From the IMG/VR virus record IMGVR_UViG_3300042392_000113, positions 1 through 34,807 of that record: DNA of 34,807 bases; one strand, 5' to 3'. Each line of letters begins with the position of its first letter. The first letter of the stretch is position 1. This document shows, piece after piece, positions 1,835-26,465 of the stretch. The notes beneath the pieces were generated by a model, which searched no databases, was not told where the DNA came from, and saw nothing but the letters and a program-made list of their open reading frames with translations. Source of the DNA: a virus. Both the position numbers and the translations under genes were made by a program.

Positions 1835-4800
1835 TTACCTCGCAAGAGAATTTTTAAACGGCGACTCACTGAAAGCCGCAAAAATATATGTGCCGCCGCT
1901 AGCGTTAGATTCAGTAGATGACACTCTCAACTTGAAACCATTGGAAAGCATATCGATGCTTGCATAACTTGTTTCTTCCGCTAAAGCTTCATTCGCTCTT
2001 TGCAGTTTTGTTGCAAGATTAAAAGTATCTCTTACGCTATCTAGCATCCACCAACTTCCTACTGAGTCAGTGCGCTTTACCATCACGAACCTCGGCCTAA
2101 ATCCGCAGAACACAAAAGGCCCATCAGCCGATCCGTTGCCTGTGTAGCTGCCAAACTTGGAATAGCCTGCGACTTCGGAGAATAGGTAGGCGACGTAGGT
2201 GTTGCCGTTGGAATTCCAACCAACATCGCTTGTGGATGGCAGAGTAATTGAAGACGAACCCCTTGTAATAGGGAAGTTTCCGAGATCACCGTTGGTAATG
2301 TTCAACCCGAGCCTTGTAAATCCTTGGCTGCCCCATACGTTCCAGCTTGCCGAGGCGCTTCTGTTTTTGACAATAACAAAGTTTGGGGCAACCCCCAAAG
2401 AGTGATTGACAACCTGACTTGCAGCCCCATTCCCCGTATAAGTCACAATGTCGAAGCCCTGCGTTGCGCCTTCTTTCCATTGCCAGCCGACGTAGGTTCC
2501 TGCGCTTGCATTTACTCCAGCAGATGTACTTAACGTAAACCCATTTGAATTGAACGCTGTTAATTCATCAGTGTTGCTAGTTTCTGCTCCTGTCGTATCT
2601 GAAAATAATTGTTTGCTTACCCCGCGAACAGAATCATGTAATCGGTTCGATCTGACTGCGCTTCGTTGTTTTATCCAAACCAGATCGGGTTGCATTGACC
2701 CGCTGTTGGTCACAGATAAAGTTGCACCAGTACCCGTCCACAGTGTCGCGTCAAAATACTGATTGCCATTCAGGATAGTCGGCGTTGGCAGGTTCAACGT
2801 GTTCAGTGCTTTGAAGCCTGTTGGTGGTGTGTAGCTGAAGGGGCGCTGGCCGAAGTTGGCTTGGAAGTATGCTGTCTCTGAAGAAAAGGCAGGAAAGAAT
2901 TCACCAGACAAACTTGAGAAGGCTACTCCTTGAGACGTGTTGTTTTTGTAGAACGTCAAAGTCCCAGCATCTAAGTCAAGCGCAACGCCAATGACATCGC
3001 CATTGGTGTAACTCGCACCATAAGCAGTGCCAGTGGAATTGTTTAGCTTCGTTCCACCTGCTGAATAACCATAGCCATTTGGATCACCGGAGTAACCCAC
3101 TATCTGAAATAGCGTAGTGTTCGTTTTGTGTATTCCAAGCACACCATCGCCGCTACCCGGTTTATAAAACGTAGCTTCCCAGTACCACTTGCCCGTCGAT
3201 ACGGCGATTGTCGAACCAACCATAGCCCAACCAGCGCCGCCGATTAAATCAAGATTGCCGTTCTTGGGTACGATAGCAGCGCCGCCTCCGCCGTTATACA
3301 TAATCAACGGATTGCCAGTGCAGTAATTCCCCCGCCCATTGCCGCCATCTGCCCATTGTGTCGGCACATCCAGCATCGAGTCGTAGGTTGTGCCAACAAC
3401 CATGCTGATGTTGTTTGGTGTCCAGTTGTTGCCGTTGCCTGAGTAGTCGTTGAAGAGGTTTGTCAGCAAGCCAGAACTTGTGAATGTGTGGATGGTATTA
3501 CCACCCGAAGTCGTAATCGTGCCGCCTGAAAAGCGAGCTGCTCCAGCGTAAGAGATGATGACTACGCCAGAGCCACCATTGCCGCCAGTTGTGCCGCCAC
3601 CGTTAGCGCCGCCACCGCCGCCGCCGCCGGTATTTGGAGTACCAGCAGTTGCATTTGCGCCGCCATGAACACCGCCAGTACCGCCGCCACCAAGACCGCC
3701 CGCACCATTTGAAGTGCCGTTAATACCGCCGCCGCCGCCACCCCCAGCATAGTAGGTAGCAGTGCCAGAAATTGATGAGAGGATACCTATACCACCTGCG
3801 CCAGATGCGCTAGTTGTTCCAACAGCACCAGCAGCACCAGCGCCGCCACCACCACCCACCCCAAAATTTGCAGAAGTAGCACTATTTCCACCATTGTTAC
3901 CCTGACCTGCTGTACCCAAACCTCCTATATAGCCGCCTGCTCCGGGGCCAGCGCCACTACCAGAACCGCCATTTTTTCCATTCTCAGCACTTTGAGAACC
4001 TACAGCACCACCTATTGCTGTGAAACTAGAAAAAACGGAATTGCCTCCGCTTGTTGACGTGTAATTGTTAGTGCCTATACCACCAGCGCCAACAGTGACT
4101 GCGTAGGATGTACCTGTTGACAAAGAGGTGCTTCCTGTCAGTACGCCACCCGCACCCGCACCACCACCAGCTATGCCACCACCACCACCGCCTGCAACTA
4201 CGAGGTAGTCTGCTGTGACTGATTGACCAGCGCTAGTAGAGAACGGCAAGTAGAAACCGTTCGTGCCGTATGTGCCTGCGTACTTCTTCGGTTGCCATAC
4301 ACCAGTGGCGGCATTGGTTTCGCCGAAGGCCGCAGGAGTCAGTGCTTGACCGTCGATGAAGTTGACTTCAGTGATGTAGCCATCAACATAATCAGAAGCA
4401 GATGCAGCGTAGCGACCAATGTAATGAGCGACCGCACTATTGATTTTTGTCGTTGAGTTCTGCGTCGGATAACCGGTAGCATCAAATGCCGTGATCTGTG
4501 AACCGTTAAGATAAATCTTTAGACGGTTTGATGCTGTCGCTTGCGTCGTATCGACCGCAAATACGAAGTGGTACCACGCCGACGGATCACGGAACACTTG
4601 TGTCGTTGTTTGTGAAGCTCCAAGGTACACAATCAACTTATCTGTACCGCCGCCTTGAAAATAAATCTGGTCAGACACAGCCGCGCCAGCAGACAACAAC
4701 TGCTGGTTGCTATTAAGCGAACCACGTTTCACCCATAACGAATAAGTCCAGATTGACCCGCTAGTGGGTGTTGTCAGCGTCCGATTCAAATACGCAGATG

Positions 4801-4876: not shown

Positions 4877-6456
4877 TTGACATCGCTCACAAGGCGAGCA
4901 GTGATGCGGCTGCTGCTCTCGACAAAGTAGACCAGCAGATCCACTGCATTGGCCGTCGTAGTCAGCGTCGGCGCTGTGCCATTGCTGAACTTCCAGTTGC
5001 TGCCGTAGGCCAGCGTCCTCGAACCAGTTCCGTCTTGAGTGATGGTGATAGCACCTGACTGACCTGCTGTCTGGTTCGTCGGGTTGGCTAGTGTCCGATT
5101 GCCGCCGAGTGTCACGCTGAAGTTATTCGACACAGCGAAGTCAGGTGTAATGGTCGCGCCATCGGTCAGCGCTGTGACTCCACCACGCTGCGCCCTAGTG
5201 AATGTCTGCGTTACATCGGTCTTAGCTGTATCAACGTCATACGCCTGTACATCTACGCCTACCTCAACGTCCATTGCCTGCTGTGCTGCTGCTACTGTTG
5301 CCGCAGTAAACACGCCGATACCAACTGTCGTACCACCGAGGTTTGTTCTAGCAGTGGATGCGCTTTGCAGGTCAGACAAGTTACTTGCCTTGGCAAGGAA
5401 GTCTGTACCAGAGACATAGGCGGCTACCCATGTGCTGCCGGTGTAGACCTTCATGATGCCGCTAGTGCTATTGAAGTACAGCGCACCAGCTACCAGTGCA
5501 TTACCATCATTGTCTACGGATGGATCAGAAGACTTGGCTCCAAGGTAGCGGTCATCGAATGAATCGAATGATGCCAGCGTCTGGTCACGGGCAGCTTCAG
5601 CCGCAGTCTGTGCAGATGCTGCGTTGGATGCTGATGTCGATGCACTGCTTGCAGAACTAGCCGCAGCCTGTGCATGGTACTTAGCAGAGAATTCACCGCC
5701 AGCTACAGCGCCTGATGTCTTGGTCGCCCAATCGTTTGCCAATGTGGCCGATGCCGCTGCTGCCGCTTCAGATGCTGCTGCTGCAGCAGCAGAAGCTGTG
5801 GCCGTACCAGAGTCAACCAACAGCGACCACTTAGCCGCATCGGTATTTGTGGAGATCGGCTGCGAACCGGTAGAAGTATGCTGGGTAATACACTGCCAGA
5901 TATTATTGTTGCTGGTGTCCTTGACGATATCTCGGACGTAGTACAGCGTACCAGATGCCCAGTTGCCACGGTTAGTGCCGAGCGTCTCACCCAATGTTGG
6001 GTTACCGTTTGCATCAAAGCCAAGCGTCTTATTGGCTCGCAGCGATGCACGGGGTAAGGTCATGTTGATCGTTGTCGGATCAGTCTGCGGAGCTTGCAGA
6101 GCACGACCTAGACCTTCAGCGTTCTGCTGGCTAAAGATTGTCTGCTGATCCAACTCATCATTAACCGTATTGGCAAAGAAGTCACCGCCAGTCGTGAAGT
6201 CAGTGGTACGCTGAATCGTACGGTTACCGACGATTGCAATCTGCGTAGCACCAGTGGGCGACGCTACCAGCGTGACATAACCAGTACCATTGCTATTAAT
6301 GGTGACCGTGTAATCAGTGGTCAAGGTCAGCAGCGCGTCGTCCTTGTAAACAGCAACGTCACCAGCCGCAAGGATTTCAAACGTGAAGTTATACGGGCCA
6401 GTGCCTGATGCGGCATAGACCACGCGCCTTGTCACATTGTTAATTGGTACGCCCAT
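4873..6456 (-). CDS. Tail fibre protein with T7-type N-terminal domain
   Basis: This is a 527-aa fibre. Residues about 1-150 match the T7 gp17-type virion-attachment domain (RRVVYAASGTGPYNFTFEIL, YTVTINSNGTGYVTL, NRTIQRTTDF, DQQTIFSQQNAEGLGRAL). A short region with W-x-S-G-T-x-Y and DIVKDTSNNNIWQCI at about 165-215 resembles carbohydrate-binding modules. An Ala/Ser-rich coiled stalk follows (about 220-300), then beta-rich units with LYFNSTSGIMKVYTGSTWVA and a C-terminal strand-rich tip (about 425-527). It is followed at once by the 1013-aa adhesin, so the pair probably works as attachment stalk plus receptor-binding part. An AAAGGA ribosome site precedes the ATG at 6456. Confidence 0.9.
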   Translation of the reverse strand: MGVPINNVTRRVVYAASGTGPYNFTFEILAAGDVAVYKDDALLTLTTDYTVTINSNGTGYVTLVASPTGATQIAIVGNRTIQRTTDFTTGGDFFANTVNDELDQQTIFSQQNAEGLGRALQAPQTDPTTINMTLPRASLRANKTLGFDANGNPTLGETLGTNRGNWASGTLYYVRDIVKDTSNNNIWQCITQHTSTGSQPISTNTDAAKWSLLVDSGTATASAAAAAASEAAAAASATLANDWATKTSGAVAGGEFSAKYHAQAAASSASSASTSASNAASAQTAAEAARDQTLASFDSFDDRYLGAKSSDPSVDNDGNALVAGALYFNSTSGIMKVYTGSTWVAAYVSGTDFLAKASNLSDLQSASTARTNLGGTTVGIGVFTAATVAAAQQAMDVEVGVDVQAYDVDTAKTDVTQTFTRAQRGGVTALTDGATITPDFAVSNNFSVTLGGNRTLANPTNQTAGQSGAITITQDGTGSRTLAYGSNWKFSNGTAPTLTTTANAVDLLVYFVESSSRITARLVSDVK

Positions 6457-6487: not shown

Positions 6488-9400
6488 TTATTTGCCATAT
6501 AAGCTATAGAATTTTTTGTTTCTGTCAATCATGGCACCCAGTTCTGGAAACTCCACGCTGTCAGACAAAAAGCCATATTCCGTCAGGTCAGGGATTTCGG
6601 TTTGTCCCAACTCGGGACTAGGGTCAAAGCCAATCATTCTCAGTTTGGCAATGCGCCGATACTTCTTAATGATACTGTCCACAAACTTCTGAGCATCGCC
6701 CTTATTAAACGGCTCACCCATCTCAATGGCGTACTTCTCTTTCTCTTTCAGCAAGTAAGGCACTGCCATTTCTAGGTTCATAGGAGCCGCTGTAGCCGTG
6801 TCCACAAACAAGGATGGGTCAATCATTATCTCTTGCCCGTAAAGCTTCTTGTAGCGGTTGTATTGGGTCACAGATAGGCTTACACCATCCCATGTATCCC
6901 GTGGTCTGGATGTGCCGTGGTCGATGCTAACCATTGCCTCATTGTACGGATCACGCTTACCTTTGCTGCCCTGCACCATTGGAATGACGTTTGCCATAAA
7001 TTCAAACATATTGTTTTCGGCATACTTGCGGCGACCAATTTCATCTAGCTCTGCTTGCAGGCCCTCCGACCATGCGGGGATGCGGCTTTGAACTCGGTTT
7101 AGTTGCTCGTAAACAATACGGATATGCTGCGGCACATTCATTTGGTCAACGCGGGTAGACCGGATTAGCGGGTCATTCAGACGCTCGATGTGGGCAAGAG
7201 CTGAAGCATTGGTTGATCCAAGTATAGGAGTGCCGGTATACAGAACATCCACATACTGTTTGGCAATACGATTTAAAACCTCGTAAACCTTTTCGCCGCC
7301 GTCTTCGGCACGAGTTCTTAGGATGCCTACCAAGTCACCAATAGCCTGCGCTGATGGGAGGTTCTTGATGTATTCAAGGTTTGAGCCAGCATAAGCCAAG
7401 GCCAGCTTCGACCACTCATCTTCGTCTGGCTTACCGGTGTGGAAACGCTGGGCATCAGCAAAGTCTGCACCCATTGCCAGCACTGGGCTAAAGACTGAGA
7501 ACCGTGCGTAGCTGACAAATGTAAATCCACTGAAGTTACCTTGCCCTTTGGTCAGCGTTGTTAGCTTTGACAACTTTGCCTCAACATCTGGGCTAAGTTC
7601 ACCCGGCTTGAAGATCAGCGAATACTTTTGCCAACCAAGTGCCTCAAGAGCTTTCTTGTCTTGGATGTCGGATGGGCCAGAACCAGTCATCCTCCCGTCT
7701 GTTGCAAACTGAACAGCAGTGTACCCAGCCAGACCACCCAATGCCAAACGAGACATCGCCAGATCACGCTCTTTGCCGCCAGCATTCCACGCATCCATGA
7801 ACTTGGGGCTAATAAAGTTCATTATAGGAGTGGCGGCAGCGGTATGCAGGAACTCCTGCGTGATGGCACGGGAGAACGGAAGGAACGGCTTTAGCGCAGT
7901 GCTTTGGAATAGTTTGTCCGTCTTCCAATAAAACTCATTAAGTTTTGTCTCGCGGTTAAAGTCTTCTGTAAATGTCGTTTGCTGCCTTGCCTTGTCCATA
8001 TTGGCTTGCATCGAGGCAGGACGCTCGTCAAGGAACGAAGCGACAACACGCTGAGTCTCAGCTAACGCATCATCTGGACTTGAGCCAGCAGCAATAAACT
8101 TATCGTACTCTGTTTGTGCAACGTGCCAAGCTTCCTCATGCAATTGCATCCGCGCAGTAGTAAGCCCGATAAAATCGTCGGCTGCTCTCATTGCACGGAA
8201 CGGGACGCTGTACATATAGCCCATTGCATCCAAGCCCTTACCGATAAAGCTATTGGTAAAGTCAGGAGTTCGGAATAGCTCTTTGCTGCTAAACGGTAGG
8301 CGTACTGGCACATCGCTAAATGCCGCGCCAGACAGCGGGGCAACAGTTGCATCACCTTTGGCTGACGCTCTTAGGCCATAGTCTTTACTAAACGGCGTAG
8401 GCAAAGTAAAGTCAATACCCATGCTAGGGATCTGAACCCGTGGGCCACCTTTTGCCAGCGTTTCCCAAGCATCCATAATGCCGGGACCAAAGCCAGACAG
8501 ACGGGCTTGCAGGTCACCTAAGAAGAATCGACTACCCGGAGTTGGTTCTGCCATTGGATGTGGCGTTCCTTCTGGCAAACCCTCAAGAGAACGGATATTA
8601 AAATCTTTTCTCATAATCCCAATAGGGATAGCTACCAGACGCTCAACTGGGGCGCGAACAGTATTCAGAACACCAGAAGTAAAGCTGAACGCATGAGGGG
8701 CAATATCGCTCAACAGGTTTGACTGCCATGTGTTGATCCACGCATCACGCAGACGCTGACCAAGACCTGCTTCGATAAGCTGGTTCTTACCTTTGCGGCT
8801 TGGCAAGGCAATGTAGTCATTAGCAATCTGAAGCAATGACTTCTCGCCACCCACATCATCCAATATCTTACGGATATCCATTGGAGCAAAGCCGGGGCCC
8901 CCATCCCTAACGCGTTTAAAGACGTTCATGGAACGAGCCACATCAACCTGTACGCCCTTCATGGTGCCAGTGATGACATTGTGGAAGGCCATCTGCTGAC
9001 GCAACTGCAACTGACCTGCTTGGTCGAGCTGACCAGCGGCCATCTTCTGCATCAAGGTATCAAGCTGCTTTGCGCTCTGGTCGTGCAAGTCCACTACACC
9101 AGAAACCGTCTTTGCCAACTCGGAAGATCCGACAGTAGACTCAAGCGGCAAGCCTTGCAGCAGGCGATCAGCAACATTCTCACGGACACCAGCGTTAATC
9201 ATCCGCATCTTGATAGAACGCAGTGACATCGTTGGCTCGTTCTTGACCGAGTTCTCAGCCATCGCACGAACAGTGGCCTGCATTCCGTCATTGTCAAATG
9301 CAAGGTTGCTGATAGGCGTTTCTTTTGTACCAGCCGCAGGACCAACATCTTTTAGCCGCTGACGCTCTTGGATTAATCTTTGAGTTTCATCCAATGGCAC

Positions 9401-17259: not shown

Positions 17260-17286
17260 AAAAAAAACCCCCAGACCGGCTGGGGG
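17260..17286 (-). terminator. Rho-independent terminator after scaffold gene
   Basis: A 7-bp GC-rich stem (CCCCCAG / CTGGGGG) with a 5-nt loop is followed on the minus strand by eight U residues. It stands about 30 nt past the scaffold stop and just before the capsid promoter. This is the clearest terminator on the minus strand and separates the packaging/head-assembly transcript from the capsid transcript. Confidence 0.9.
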
Positions 17287-17316
17287 CAAACTCCGTGGAG
17301 GAGTGGAGACTCCTAT

Positions 17317-24792: not shown

Positions 24793-25001
24793 TGCTCACC
24801 CCTTGCGCGGATATATGTAGCTGCCACTTCAAAACATTCTTTAGCATCTCCCATGCAAGTAAGTTCGCCCATTAACTTTGCACACGCCTCGCGCTCGGCT
24901 GCGGCGACTAGTGCGCCGAAGCGTTCGATGCACTGGATAGAAGCATTCGTGTTTATCAATCCAGTTTCTCGCGCCATGCGAGCAATGTCATCTCTGGTCA
25001 T
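24789..25001 (-). CDS. Small conserved phage protein between terminase genes
   Basis: This 70-aa protein (TRDDIARMARETGL ... FGALVAAAEREACAKLMGEL) is of the type often found as short helper ORFs in phages, with the recurring A-A-A-E-R-E-A-C-A-K helix. Function is unknown. The start is fixed by GGAGG 6 nt before ATG 25001. Two upstream in-frame starts are worse placed. It overlaps the small terminase end by 14 nt and the large terminase start by 4 nt. Confidence 0.7.
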   Translation of the reverse strand: MTRDDIARMARETGLINTNASIQCIERFGALVAAAEREACAKLMGELTCMGDAKECFEVAATYIRARGEQ

Positions 25002-25431
25002 TGACATCCTCCACATCGATGATCTCAGGCGCTTTGACGTTGATGCCAATGACGCTTGGTTTATCTGACTCCTCGGCAGTATCCAGCAGGCCAGAGGCTT
25101 TAGCTAAGATGCGTAGAACGCCGACCTTATCGTATAGTTCTATGTCAAGAGTCCGCACACAGCCGCCTTCTTTGTCGTAGCGCTCGTTGACTTTGATGGA
25201 CTTGATGGCTTGCAGTGCGTGTTCAGGGATGTCTTTACTGGCTTTGACTTTAATATTGCCAGTCTCATCCCACTCCATGATGTCGGTGAGTTTGGTATTG
25301 GCAATAGTCAGCAGGGAGTAGGCGACAGCTTCCCTGTTCTTAGCGATAGTAGCTGATCCACCCAGACGCTTCTGGACATTTTGGACACCGCCCCACTGCT
25401 TTAGTGATGGTATTTGTTTAGTTACGCTCAT
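24988..25431 (-). CDS. terS: Terminase small subunit
   Basis: This 147-aa protein has a helical N-terminus, then MEWDETGNIKVKASKDIPEH and ALQAIKSIKVNERYDKEGGC, and IELYDKVGVLRILAKASGLL near residues 100-119. These features are typical of one terminase small-subunit class that recognises the packaging site and feeds the large subunit. It is placed directly upstream of the small helper gene and terL. An unusual leader with strong inverted repeats (25456-25516) lies just upstream of its start. Confidence 0.82.
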   Translation of the reverse strand: MSVTKQIPSLKQWGGVQNVQKRLGGSATIAKNREAVAYSLLTIANTKLTDIMEWDETGNIKVKASKDIPEHALQAIKSIKVNERYDKEGGCVRTLDIELYDKVGVLRILAKASGLLDTAEESDKPSVIGINVKAPEIIDVEDVNDQR

Positions 25432-25455
25432 AGTTTTTAATTAACCAACACGGAA

Positions 25456-25516
25456 GGGCAGGTTGCATTCCCAGTTAGCCGTGTGCAATATGCCACTATC
25501 GCCCTATGGCCTGCCC
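25456..25516 (-). other. Possible structured RNA leader before terminase genes
   Basis: On the minus strand GGGCAGG (25516-25510) can pair with CCTGCCC (25462-25456). It would enclose one hairpin with CCA/TGG arms and a second with TTGCA (25488-25484) / TGCAA (25467-25463), giving a three-way junction. An alternative stem, ACACGG (25484-25479) with CCGTGT (25453-25448), is mutually exclusive with part of this. It ends about 25 nt before the small-terminase ATG. Found by eye only. It could also be a DNA site for packaging. Confidence 0.4.
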
Positions 25517-25552
25517 TTGCGTCTTGATGCCGGTCTATCCCGGCTGTCTGTA

Positions 25553-25699
25553 TCAATTACAAGTGGTATTACAGTTCCCGCCATAGCAGCAGGTGGTGCA
25601 GTAAACGCATTGTCCGCCACTGCAATAGGTATTGTAGGTGCAAGCTGCGTAGCTCATAGTTGCGGTAGCTGCTAGCCAGAGTGCGATGAGATATTTCAT
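25553..25699 (-). CDS. Cysteine-rich exported peptide
   Basis: This 48-aa precursor has a Sec-type signal peptide (MKYLIALWLAATATMSYAA, residues 1-19) followed by a short mature part of about 29 residues with eight Cys (positions 20, 26, 31, 34, 37, 38, 43 and 47) plus many Gly, Tyr, Asn and Thr. A strong AAAGGAG site lies 4 nt before the ATG. It is flanked by non-coding DNA between the SSB-like gene and the terminase leader. A disulfide-rich periplasmic peptide or a metal-binding peptide are both possible. I know of no assigned function. Confidence 0.72.
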   Translation of the reverse strand: MKYLIALWLAATATMSYAACTYNTYCSGGQCVYCTTCCYGGNCNTTCN

Positions 25700-25816
25700 A
25701 TGGCTCCTTTAAGGATTATTAGTTGGGTACTCGCTGCGTCCTTAGCCCCGAACGGTTGCCCTTCGGTCATTACCCACAAGCGCATTCGGCATCCGCTTTC
25801 CCCGGAGAACAATATA
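25700..25816 (-). other. Intergenic spacer, 117 bp
   Basis: The gap between the SSB-like gene and the Cys-rich peptide holds a short inverted repeat (CCGAA / TTCGG around a 9-nt loop, near 25750-25770) and the ribosome site of the peptide. I see no convincing promoter or U-tailed terminator. Confidence 0.4.
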
Positions 25817-26104
25817 TCAGAACGGTATCTCGTCATCCATATTATCTTTTTTATCGTTAGGCATATATCCATTGCCTTTATCTATCGAGTGCTGGGTAGG
25901 TTCTGCTGGCACCATCTTTCCAAGCCGTACCGAGTAAAACAAATCCCCGTTCTTCGTCTTCTTCTCCCAAGCCGACAGGTAAAACACCTGCCCATTTAAC
26001 TTCATCTTCCCAGACCAGTCCGGGCTATTCTCATTCTTCTTCTTATTTAAGAACAAATTACCATTGTCATCTTGCAACTCATAAGGCTTATTACCGTAGT
26101 TCAT
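25817..26104 (-). CDS. Probable ssDNA-binding protein with IPF tail
   Basis: This 95-aa protein has a small beta-rich core with SGKMKLNGQVFYLSAWEKKT and KNGDLFYSVRLGKM (about residues 31-64), a flexible linker, and an acidic C-terminus ending MDDEIPF. That ending mimics the DDDIPF tip by which bacterial SSB recruits partner proteins. The core could be an OB-like fold, but it is shorter than E. coli SSB (178 aa). The ATG at 26104 has GGAG 6 nt upstream, while the TTG 12 bases further up does not. It may protect DNA during the recombination carried out by the YqaJ/RecT pair. Binding is inferred. Confidence 0.6.
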   Translation of the reverse strand: MNYGNKPYELQDDNGNLFLNKKKNENSPDWSGKMKLNGQVFYLSAWEKKTKNGDLFYSVRLGKMVPAEPTQHSIDKGNGYMPNDKKDNMDDEIPF

Positions 26105-26465
26105 GTGGCTCTCCAAAGAGATTACTAAAAGTTATTTGCACAACTGTGCCTATCTACTATACTTGATTCAAGGGGCTATGACCCAGCCCTCCCGTCGGTA
26201 GCTTGTGACCAAGGGAATAAACGTGGCGAATAGGACGGTACTCCTTATTCATACTCTCGGATGAGATCAAGTAGAGAATATCGGGACACATAGTTCTTGC
26301 AGAGGCTGGCCCCTCTGTTAGCCTAGATAAACTAGAACAAGCATCCAATACTGGATTACTCCTATATAAAAAATATGGGTTAGGTTCTTATTGCCCACCC
26401 CGTGAGGGCCTTTCCTTCGTAGCCAACGCTTCTAAGCCGTCAGTCAACTACCTCACAGTTATATA
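26105..26465 (-). other. Long non-coding stretch with several inverted repeats
   Basis: About 360 bp without a convincing gene lie between the SSB-like gene and the terminator at 26466-26499. It holds short palindromes close to the SSB-like gene, a GGGCT/AGCCC hairpin (about 26172-26190), and CAGAGG/CCTCTG around a 6-nt loop (near 26299-26316). It could be a leader, an origin or a small RNA. Nothing decides between these, and no tRNA signature was found. Confidence 0.5.
26138..26172 (-). promoter_or_regulatory. Candidate promoter with flanking palindromic operators
   Basis: On the minus strand a -10-like TATAGT (26161-26156) lies between two inverted repeats: CTTGATTCAAG (26162-26172, perfect arms of five) upstream and GCACAACTGTGC (26138-26149, arms of five) downstream. 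No good -35 is visible, so it may need an activator. It is placed to drive the SSB-like gene and the genes behind it. Confidence 0.4.

Follow-up and report, generated by a model that had tools for sequence, protein, structure and literature searches.

The window, a 34,807-base record of an uncultivated virus taken here at its full length, carries portal and capsid genes matching the Pfam families Head-tail_con and Phage_capsid_2. Elsewhere on it, a small gene encodes a 48-residue precursor (MKYLIALWLAATATMSYAACTYNTYCSGGQCVYCTTCCYGGNCNTTCN) with eight cysteines. The gene is flanked by an SSB gene and the gene for the terminase small subunit (TerS), all on the same strand, and the plus-strand frames at 25553-25699 hold no competing product. 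The locus is laid out as follows:

24988..25431, minus strand: TerS gene, downstream neighbour, recognised by a DNA match to the gp49 region of phage MEP301
25553..25699, minus strand: peptide gene, 48 codons, with ATG at 25699 and TGA at 25553, supported by homologues and selection
25556..25645, minus strand: mature peptide (residues 19-48), with eight Cys and no charged residues
25646..25699, minus strand: signal peptide (residues 1-18, MKYLIALWLAATATMSYA), with Ala at the cleavage position and no lipobox
25704..25710, minus strand: ribosome-binding site AAAGGAG, 4 nt before the peptide ATG
25817..26116, minus strand: SSB gene with an acidic C-terminal tail, upstream neighbour (phrog_18154, E 4.7e-10), equivalent to MEP301 gp50

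A first-pass annotation of this DNA had described a signal peptide ahead of a very small peptide, eight cysteines in about 29 mature residues and a strong ribosome site, and our reading agrees with each of these points. Translation of the minus-strand ORF shows the eight cysteines, AAAGGAG ends 4 nt before the ATG, and GGAG-type sites also precede most of the homologues. The first 18 residues begin with positive charge, run through a hydrophobic core and close with S-Y-A, a pattern of the SPI type with a predicted cut after ...SYA. An Ala stands directly or one residue before the first mature Cys in 154 of 157 family members, and a lipobox appears in one marginal case among the 157. This sequence pattern points to an export signal in the precursor.

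The mature peptides are 29-30 residues long and, across the family, rich in Cys, Thr, Asn, Tyr and Gly. Glu (0%), Asp (1%) and His (1.7%) are nearly missing from the mature region, and the window peptide has none of the three. Net charge ranges from 0 to +2 across 158 distinct sequences (0 in 79 and +1 in 74). The charge bears on the idea that the peptide is secreted against competitor bacteria as a beta-sheet antimicrobial, akin to a bacteriocin. The size, the signal peptide and the predicted disulfide-stapled hairpins, recalling tachyplesin, protegrin and theta-defensins, would speak for this. However, the family is not cationic and no immunity or export gene was found beside the peptide gene, and we regard an antimicrobial role as very unlikely.

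A real gene with a conserved cysteine pattern

A first scan of viral contigs confirmed 95 relatives and a second, of IMG/VR, confirmed 334, the best 80 being kept from each. A separate scan used a DNA pattern for the C-terminal half only, and the matches listed for it are a lower bound. The members found by this pattern again show a signal peptide, and their first Cys again stands 14-15 residues ahead of the core; since the pattern demanded neither, their conservation is not built in. Codon comparison revealed heavy synonymous change among relatives, with pN/pS in the window's clade at about 0.2 over all pairs and 0.13 over close pairs (overall range 0.13-0.21), ratios which are approximate because distant pairs have nearly saturated synonymous sites.

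We also drew a sample independent of the peptide, consisting of 80 loci reached through the neighbouring TerS gene, for which 443 relatives were counted in viral contigs. In 42 of these 80 loci, an intact peptide copy with an intact core lies upstream of TerS, at a spacing of 3 to 725 bp. All 42 fall among the 52 loci with TerS at least 85% identical, the other ten or so of which either do not have the peptide or have too little upstream sequence, while the gene is absent from all 28 loci with TerS 69-74% identical. No broken copy was seen in the sample. The 42 intact copies and the absence from the loci with more distant TerS indicate that this is a lineage-specific accessory gene, maintained in frame.

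The first-pass annotation had proposed a dN/dS comparison, and had named a lack of homologues with the same Cys spacing, or frame-breaking mutations in close relatives, as evidence that would count against the peptide. Instead, homologues with the same spacing are many, the TerS-anchored sample holds no frame-breaking mutations, and the pN/pS values indicate purifying selection. The relatives, the conserved spacing and the strength of this selection show that the ORF is not a chance frame but a real gene with a conserved cysteine pattern.

The same annotation had placed the peptide's expression with the terminase region; the gene's linkage to terminase holds for the window's clade but not for the wider family. 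Many loci have an SSB or Erf/SSB-type gene upstream of the peptide gene, others a MazG, HNH or Cro-like gene; the downstream neighbours vary (RusA, MazG, TerS and others). As distant relatives neighbour SSB, MazG, HNH, Cro-like or RusA genes rather than terminase, the association is with the replication or middle region and not with terminase as such. Hence, we rejected a strict terminase linkage for the wider family.

No family in Pfam, PHROGs or the PDB sequences matched the window peptide (P0001), the best PDB hit being a haemoglobin at E 1.4. Other members of the 122-member alignment gave a few matches to these databases at E 0.001-0.1, none common to more than 4 of the 122. We dismissed the scattered matches to YoaP, LPAM_1 and spackle (phrog_1586; one member, E 0.069). 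Outside viruses, the peptide was found in a single 33-kb contig of an alphaproteobacterial MAG (JAIXWE010000005.1; L084, contig 65 of G001), where both it and the RNA element described below lie beside an SSB gene; this contig is probably a mis-binned phage. Searches of some 780 other bacterial genomes (385 of the MAG's class and 398 of its phylum) turned up nothing convincing, the only other match being a weak one of 21 residues (E 7e-4). We found no cultured phage with the gene, and the closest isolate, MEP301, does not have it.

The suspicion that such a short gene is widely overlooked was borne out by the deposited phage genome MW202544.1. Its homologue, at 8001-8141 on the plus strand, has no CDS on its own strand, and the CDS of UOF78377.1 is drawn across it on the opposite strand, so that this genome misses the peptide gene. 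The gene occurs in hundreds of environmental phages, yet is missing from the Pfam, PHROGs and PDB collections searched.

Structured RNAs near the gene

Between the SSB gene and the peptide gene lies a further feature:

25722..25805, minus strand: structured intercistronic RNA (GGGGAAAGCGGATGC ... GACGCAGCGAGTACCC), directly upstream of the peptide gene, supported by covariation

The element consists of an outer stem of 4-5 bp, a nearly fixed internal loop (AAAGCGGAUG/GCAGCGAGUA), an inner stem and a variable tip. Across an alignment of 60 copies, pairing in the outer stem reaches 96.7%, and each of the four pairs has undergone double changes; its first three pairs are 99% paired in 154 copies, using GC, CG, TA/AT and GU types. 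The element often lies within phage operons, about 4-8 nt past the stop of one gene and typically 15-30 nt before the start of the next. Scans with Rfam 15 of the window and seven loci, several of them carrying the element, did not report it.

Of 192 loci with peptide genes, 61 have the element nearby, and it invariably shares the strand of the gene. When searched for by its own pattern, only 2 of 108 elements abutted a peptide gene, and we therefore rejected it as a peptide-specific regulator. In 398 Pseudomonadota genomes it occurred once, on the same MAG contig as the peptide. The element is independent of the peptide family and far more general, being widespread in phage contigs. It may help to process or stabilise mRNA, or insulate the translation of neighbouring cistrons.

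An adjoining structured RNA raises the question of whether the ORF is translated at all, its conservation being instead that of an RNA or DNA element. The pN/pS of 0.13-0.21 with heavy synonymous change argues against this, as do the separation of the RNA and the ORF, which do not overlap, and the small share (2 of 108) of independently located elements that adjoin a peptide gene. We consider an untranslated ORF scarcely credible.

Other RNA features were seen in passing. Further copies of the element lie in MW202544.1 (L083) at 4320-4360 (minus strand), in L205 at 5440-5479 (plus strand) and in L343 at 4956-5022 (plus strand). The gap between the peptide and TerS genes (25432-25552, minus strand) holds more modular inverted repeats, such as AAGGGCAGG...CCTGCCCTT, and the repeat AACACG...CGTGTT in this gap encloses different inserts in different phages (also in L007, L009 and L024); these look like additional swapped RNA hairpins. 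Elsewhere in the window, positions 17260-17311 (minus strand) resemble Betaproteobacteria_toxic_sRNA of Rfam, but at 32 bits the match falls short of the cut-off of 50. This feature ends in a GC hairpin and a T run, and is probably a terminator.

Predicted fold and cysteine pairing

Nine positions are invariant in the 122 aligned members: A18, C20, C34, T36, C37, C38, C43, T45 and C47, the C-terminal invariance being partly by construction for the pattern-found members but not for those found by the other two scans or through TerS. Most of the distant relatives have six cysteines, to which the window's clade adds C26 and C31. Among the 158 distinct sequences, 69 have both of these additional cysteines and none has only one.

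We predicted the structure with AlphaFold2, using 121 family sequences as input (one row, from a phage record, was left out). The model of the window peptide has a helix at residues 3-19 and strands at 20-27, 30-39 and 42-47, with a mean pLDDT of 80; with a pTM of only 0.41, the overall model is modest. A six-cysteine relative, modelled from an alignment of six-cysteine members, was predicted to have the same layout of a signal helix and a three-stranded beta-meander. The meander would form two overlapping hairpins:

25589..25642, minus strand: predicted beta-hairpin 1 (residues 20-37), pairing C20-C37 and C26-C31 around the turn G28-G29 (AlphaFold2)
25559..25600, minus strand: predicted beta-hairpin 2 (residues 34-47), pairing C34-C47 and C38-C43 around the turn G40-G41 (AlphaFold2)

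AlphaFold2 may set cysteines side by side without evidence of bonding, and the pattern across the family offers a separate line of argument. The Gly turns at 28-29 and 40-41 give the registers i+j=57 and i+j=81, which pair all eight cysteines. When eight cysteines were placed at random with these turns fixed, complete pairing arose in 0.05% of trials; with any two turns allowed it arose in 16%, and complete pairing alone is hence not proof. The register of hairpin 1 is kept in 69 of 69 sequences and that of hairpin 2 in 158 of 158, including three with a longer turn. Indels in the family are confined to the turns and preserve both registers, and the core of the second hairpin (CTTCC-x4-CxTxC) is almost invariant. 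Parity would place C20-C37 and C26-C31 on one face of the sheet and C34-C47 and C38-C43 on the opposite face. A Foldseek search against the PDB gave nothing at E <= 0.001 and no informative match; three-stranded meanders match anything.

The registers also survive in further members. Those found later through TerS (CVTCCHFGVSCSTTC) retain both. So does a tandem paralogue (CFWRHYCTLEKCVSCSICCYESSCMKSC) that has diverged strongly, with most of its mature residues different but every one of the eight Cys positions conserved. Tandem second copies were found in L021 (66-197 and 206-352), in TerS-anchored loci and in G751. With this covariation behind it, we consider the predicted three-stranded fold with pairings 20-37, 26-31, 34-47 and 38-43 highly probable. 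If the disulfide ladder is right, the peptide would be a very dense natural cysteine scaffold and a ready-made stable mini-sheet.

As a separate observation, paralogues were noted in L021 (66-197) and in L394, L395, L399-L401, L404-L407, L409, L411, L412, L419 and L430, in several of these in tandem with the main gene. In the diverged paralogue type, the signal peptide looks degenerate (MTYLLAISLSLPPPDTLEKC).

The dense cysteines had been taken to suggest either a disulfide-knotted or a metal-binding peptide. The predicted registers, which pair every cysteine across strands, favour the former. The latter is not favoured, given that the peptide appears to be exported, that the optional cysteines come and go as a pair and that the predicted registers leave no cysteine without a partner. 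A related proposal would have the CTTCC segment load or drain DsbA/DsbB, or bind copper or zinc. It could draw on the CxxC and vicinal Cys of C34-x-x-C37-C38, invariant in the alignment, and on export, which would put the peptide next to DsbA. The predicted cross-strand pairs account for all the cysteines, however, and C26 and C31 are gained or lost together; the mature region is nearly without Asp, Glu and His; and C34 and C37 lie on opposite faces of the predicted strand. Overall, redox activity or metal binding seems unlikely.

Proposed function and comparison with known systems

Our best explanation, to which we give a probability of roughly 0.4 as a whole, is a disulfide-stapled periplasmic microprotein with an envelope target that acts in superinfection exclusion. 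The precursor would be exported by the Sec route and cut by signal peptidase I after ...SYA, releasing a neutral peptide of about 30 residues into the periplasm. Oxidation there would yield the three-stranded beta-meander with up to four cross-strand disulfides, the six-cysteine relatives being without only C26-C31. The resulting rigid, protease-resistant mini-sheet might bind one envelope component through its near-invariant second hairpin, and so act in the manner of T5 Llp and Rtp45, obstructing from within the periplasm either a receptor in the outer membrane or the route of DNA entry. We put forward the last two steps, target binding and superinfection exclusion, only tentatively.

Superinfection exclusion is our first choice by analogy, as small exported phage proteins with a disulfide-bearing beta-hairpin (Rtp45, Llp) have this function, and also because of the accessory status of the peptide gene and its maintenance in the company of replication genes. 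A lineage-specific accessory distribution is expected of an exclusion factor or of a host-interaction factor. The peptide may inhibit or modulate a periplasmic or envelope process of the host, with cell-wall or lysis timing, a protease, secretion and OMP assembly as candidates, and we consider this nearly as likely as superinfection exclusion, whereas the metal or redox and antimicrobial readings are less likely than either. The anatomy would be the same (exported, rigid, with a near-invariant second hairpin), and the gene sits in the replication or middle region, where host-takeover genes are often located. On the other hand, no lysis or envelope gene is enriched beside it, and its neighbours mainly serve DNA metabolism. 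The family might even represent a phage-only and undescribed class of exported cystine-ladder microproteins (about 30 residues with three to four disulfides), for example as an unusually small soluble exclusion factor acting on the envelope, a speculation we offer with considerable reserve.

By DNA in this region, the closest isolate is Methylophilales phage MEP301 (69.6% identity, in pieces covering 19% of an 8-kb query), a phage with a short tail that infects marine OM43 bacteria (PMC8024684). It shares with the window the order SSB, terminase small and terminase large, but there the SSB gene directly adjoins TerS, and no peptide gene is listed between the two. The homologue in the Manatee Spring phages (MW202544.1 / MW202462.1) has an SPI-type signal and a six-cysteine core (CTTHTVVSGGRIVTCTTCCFGNNCQTNCF) in a precursor of 47 residues, but is without the C26-C31 pair and lies in a different genome context. 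Comparison with metallothionein-like binders is disfavoured by the predicted export and by the paired gain and loss of cysteines.

In tachyplesin, protegrin and theta-defensins, cysteines face each other across hairpin strands joined by short turns. The peptide family would share the short turns and the cross-strand cysteines, here predicted and consistent with the registers, although we claim no homology; it also differs in being neutral rather than cationic, three-stranded and phage-encoded. The nearest functional parallels are T5 Llp and Rtp45, which are likewise small, exported and phage-encoded. Both are described as lipoproteins; Llp works on the periplasmic side, and Rtp45, with its single disulfide, inserts a beta-hairpin into LptD (PMC12685063). 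Searches with the window peptide gave no significant PDB match and no PHROGs family that would link it to exclusion lipoproteins of this type, and we do not file the family with them because their lipobox is absent (one marginal case in 157, against an SPI-position Ala in 154). The likeness to Rtp45 instead lies in a disulfide-bearing beta-hairpin, which the peptide family would extend: its roughly 30 residues are predicted to form three or four disulfides, where Rtp45 has one.
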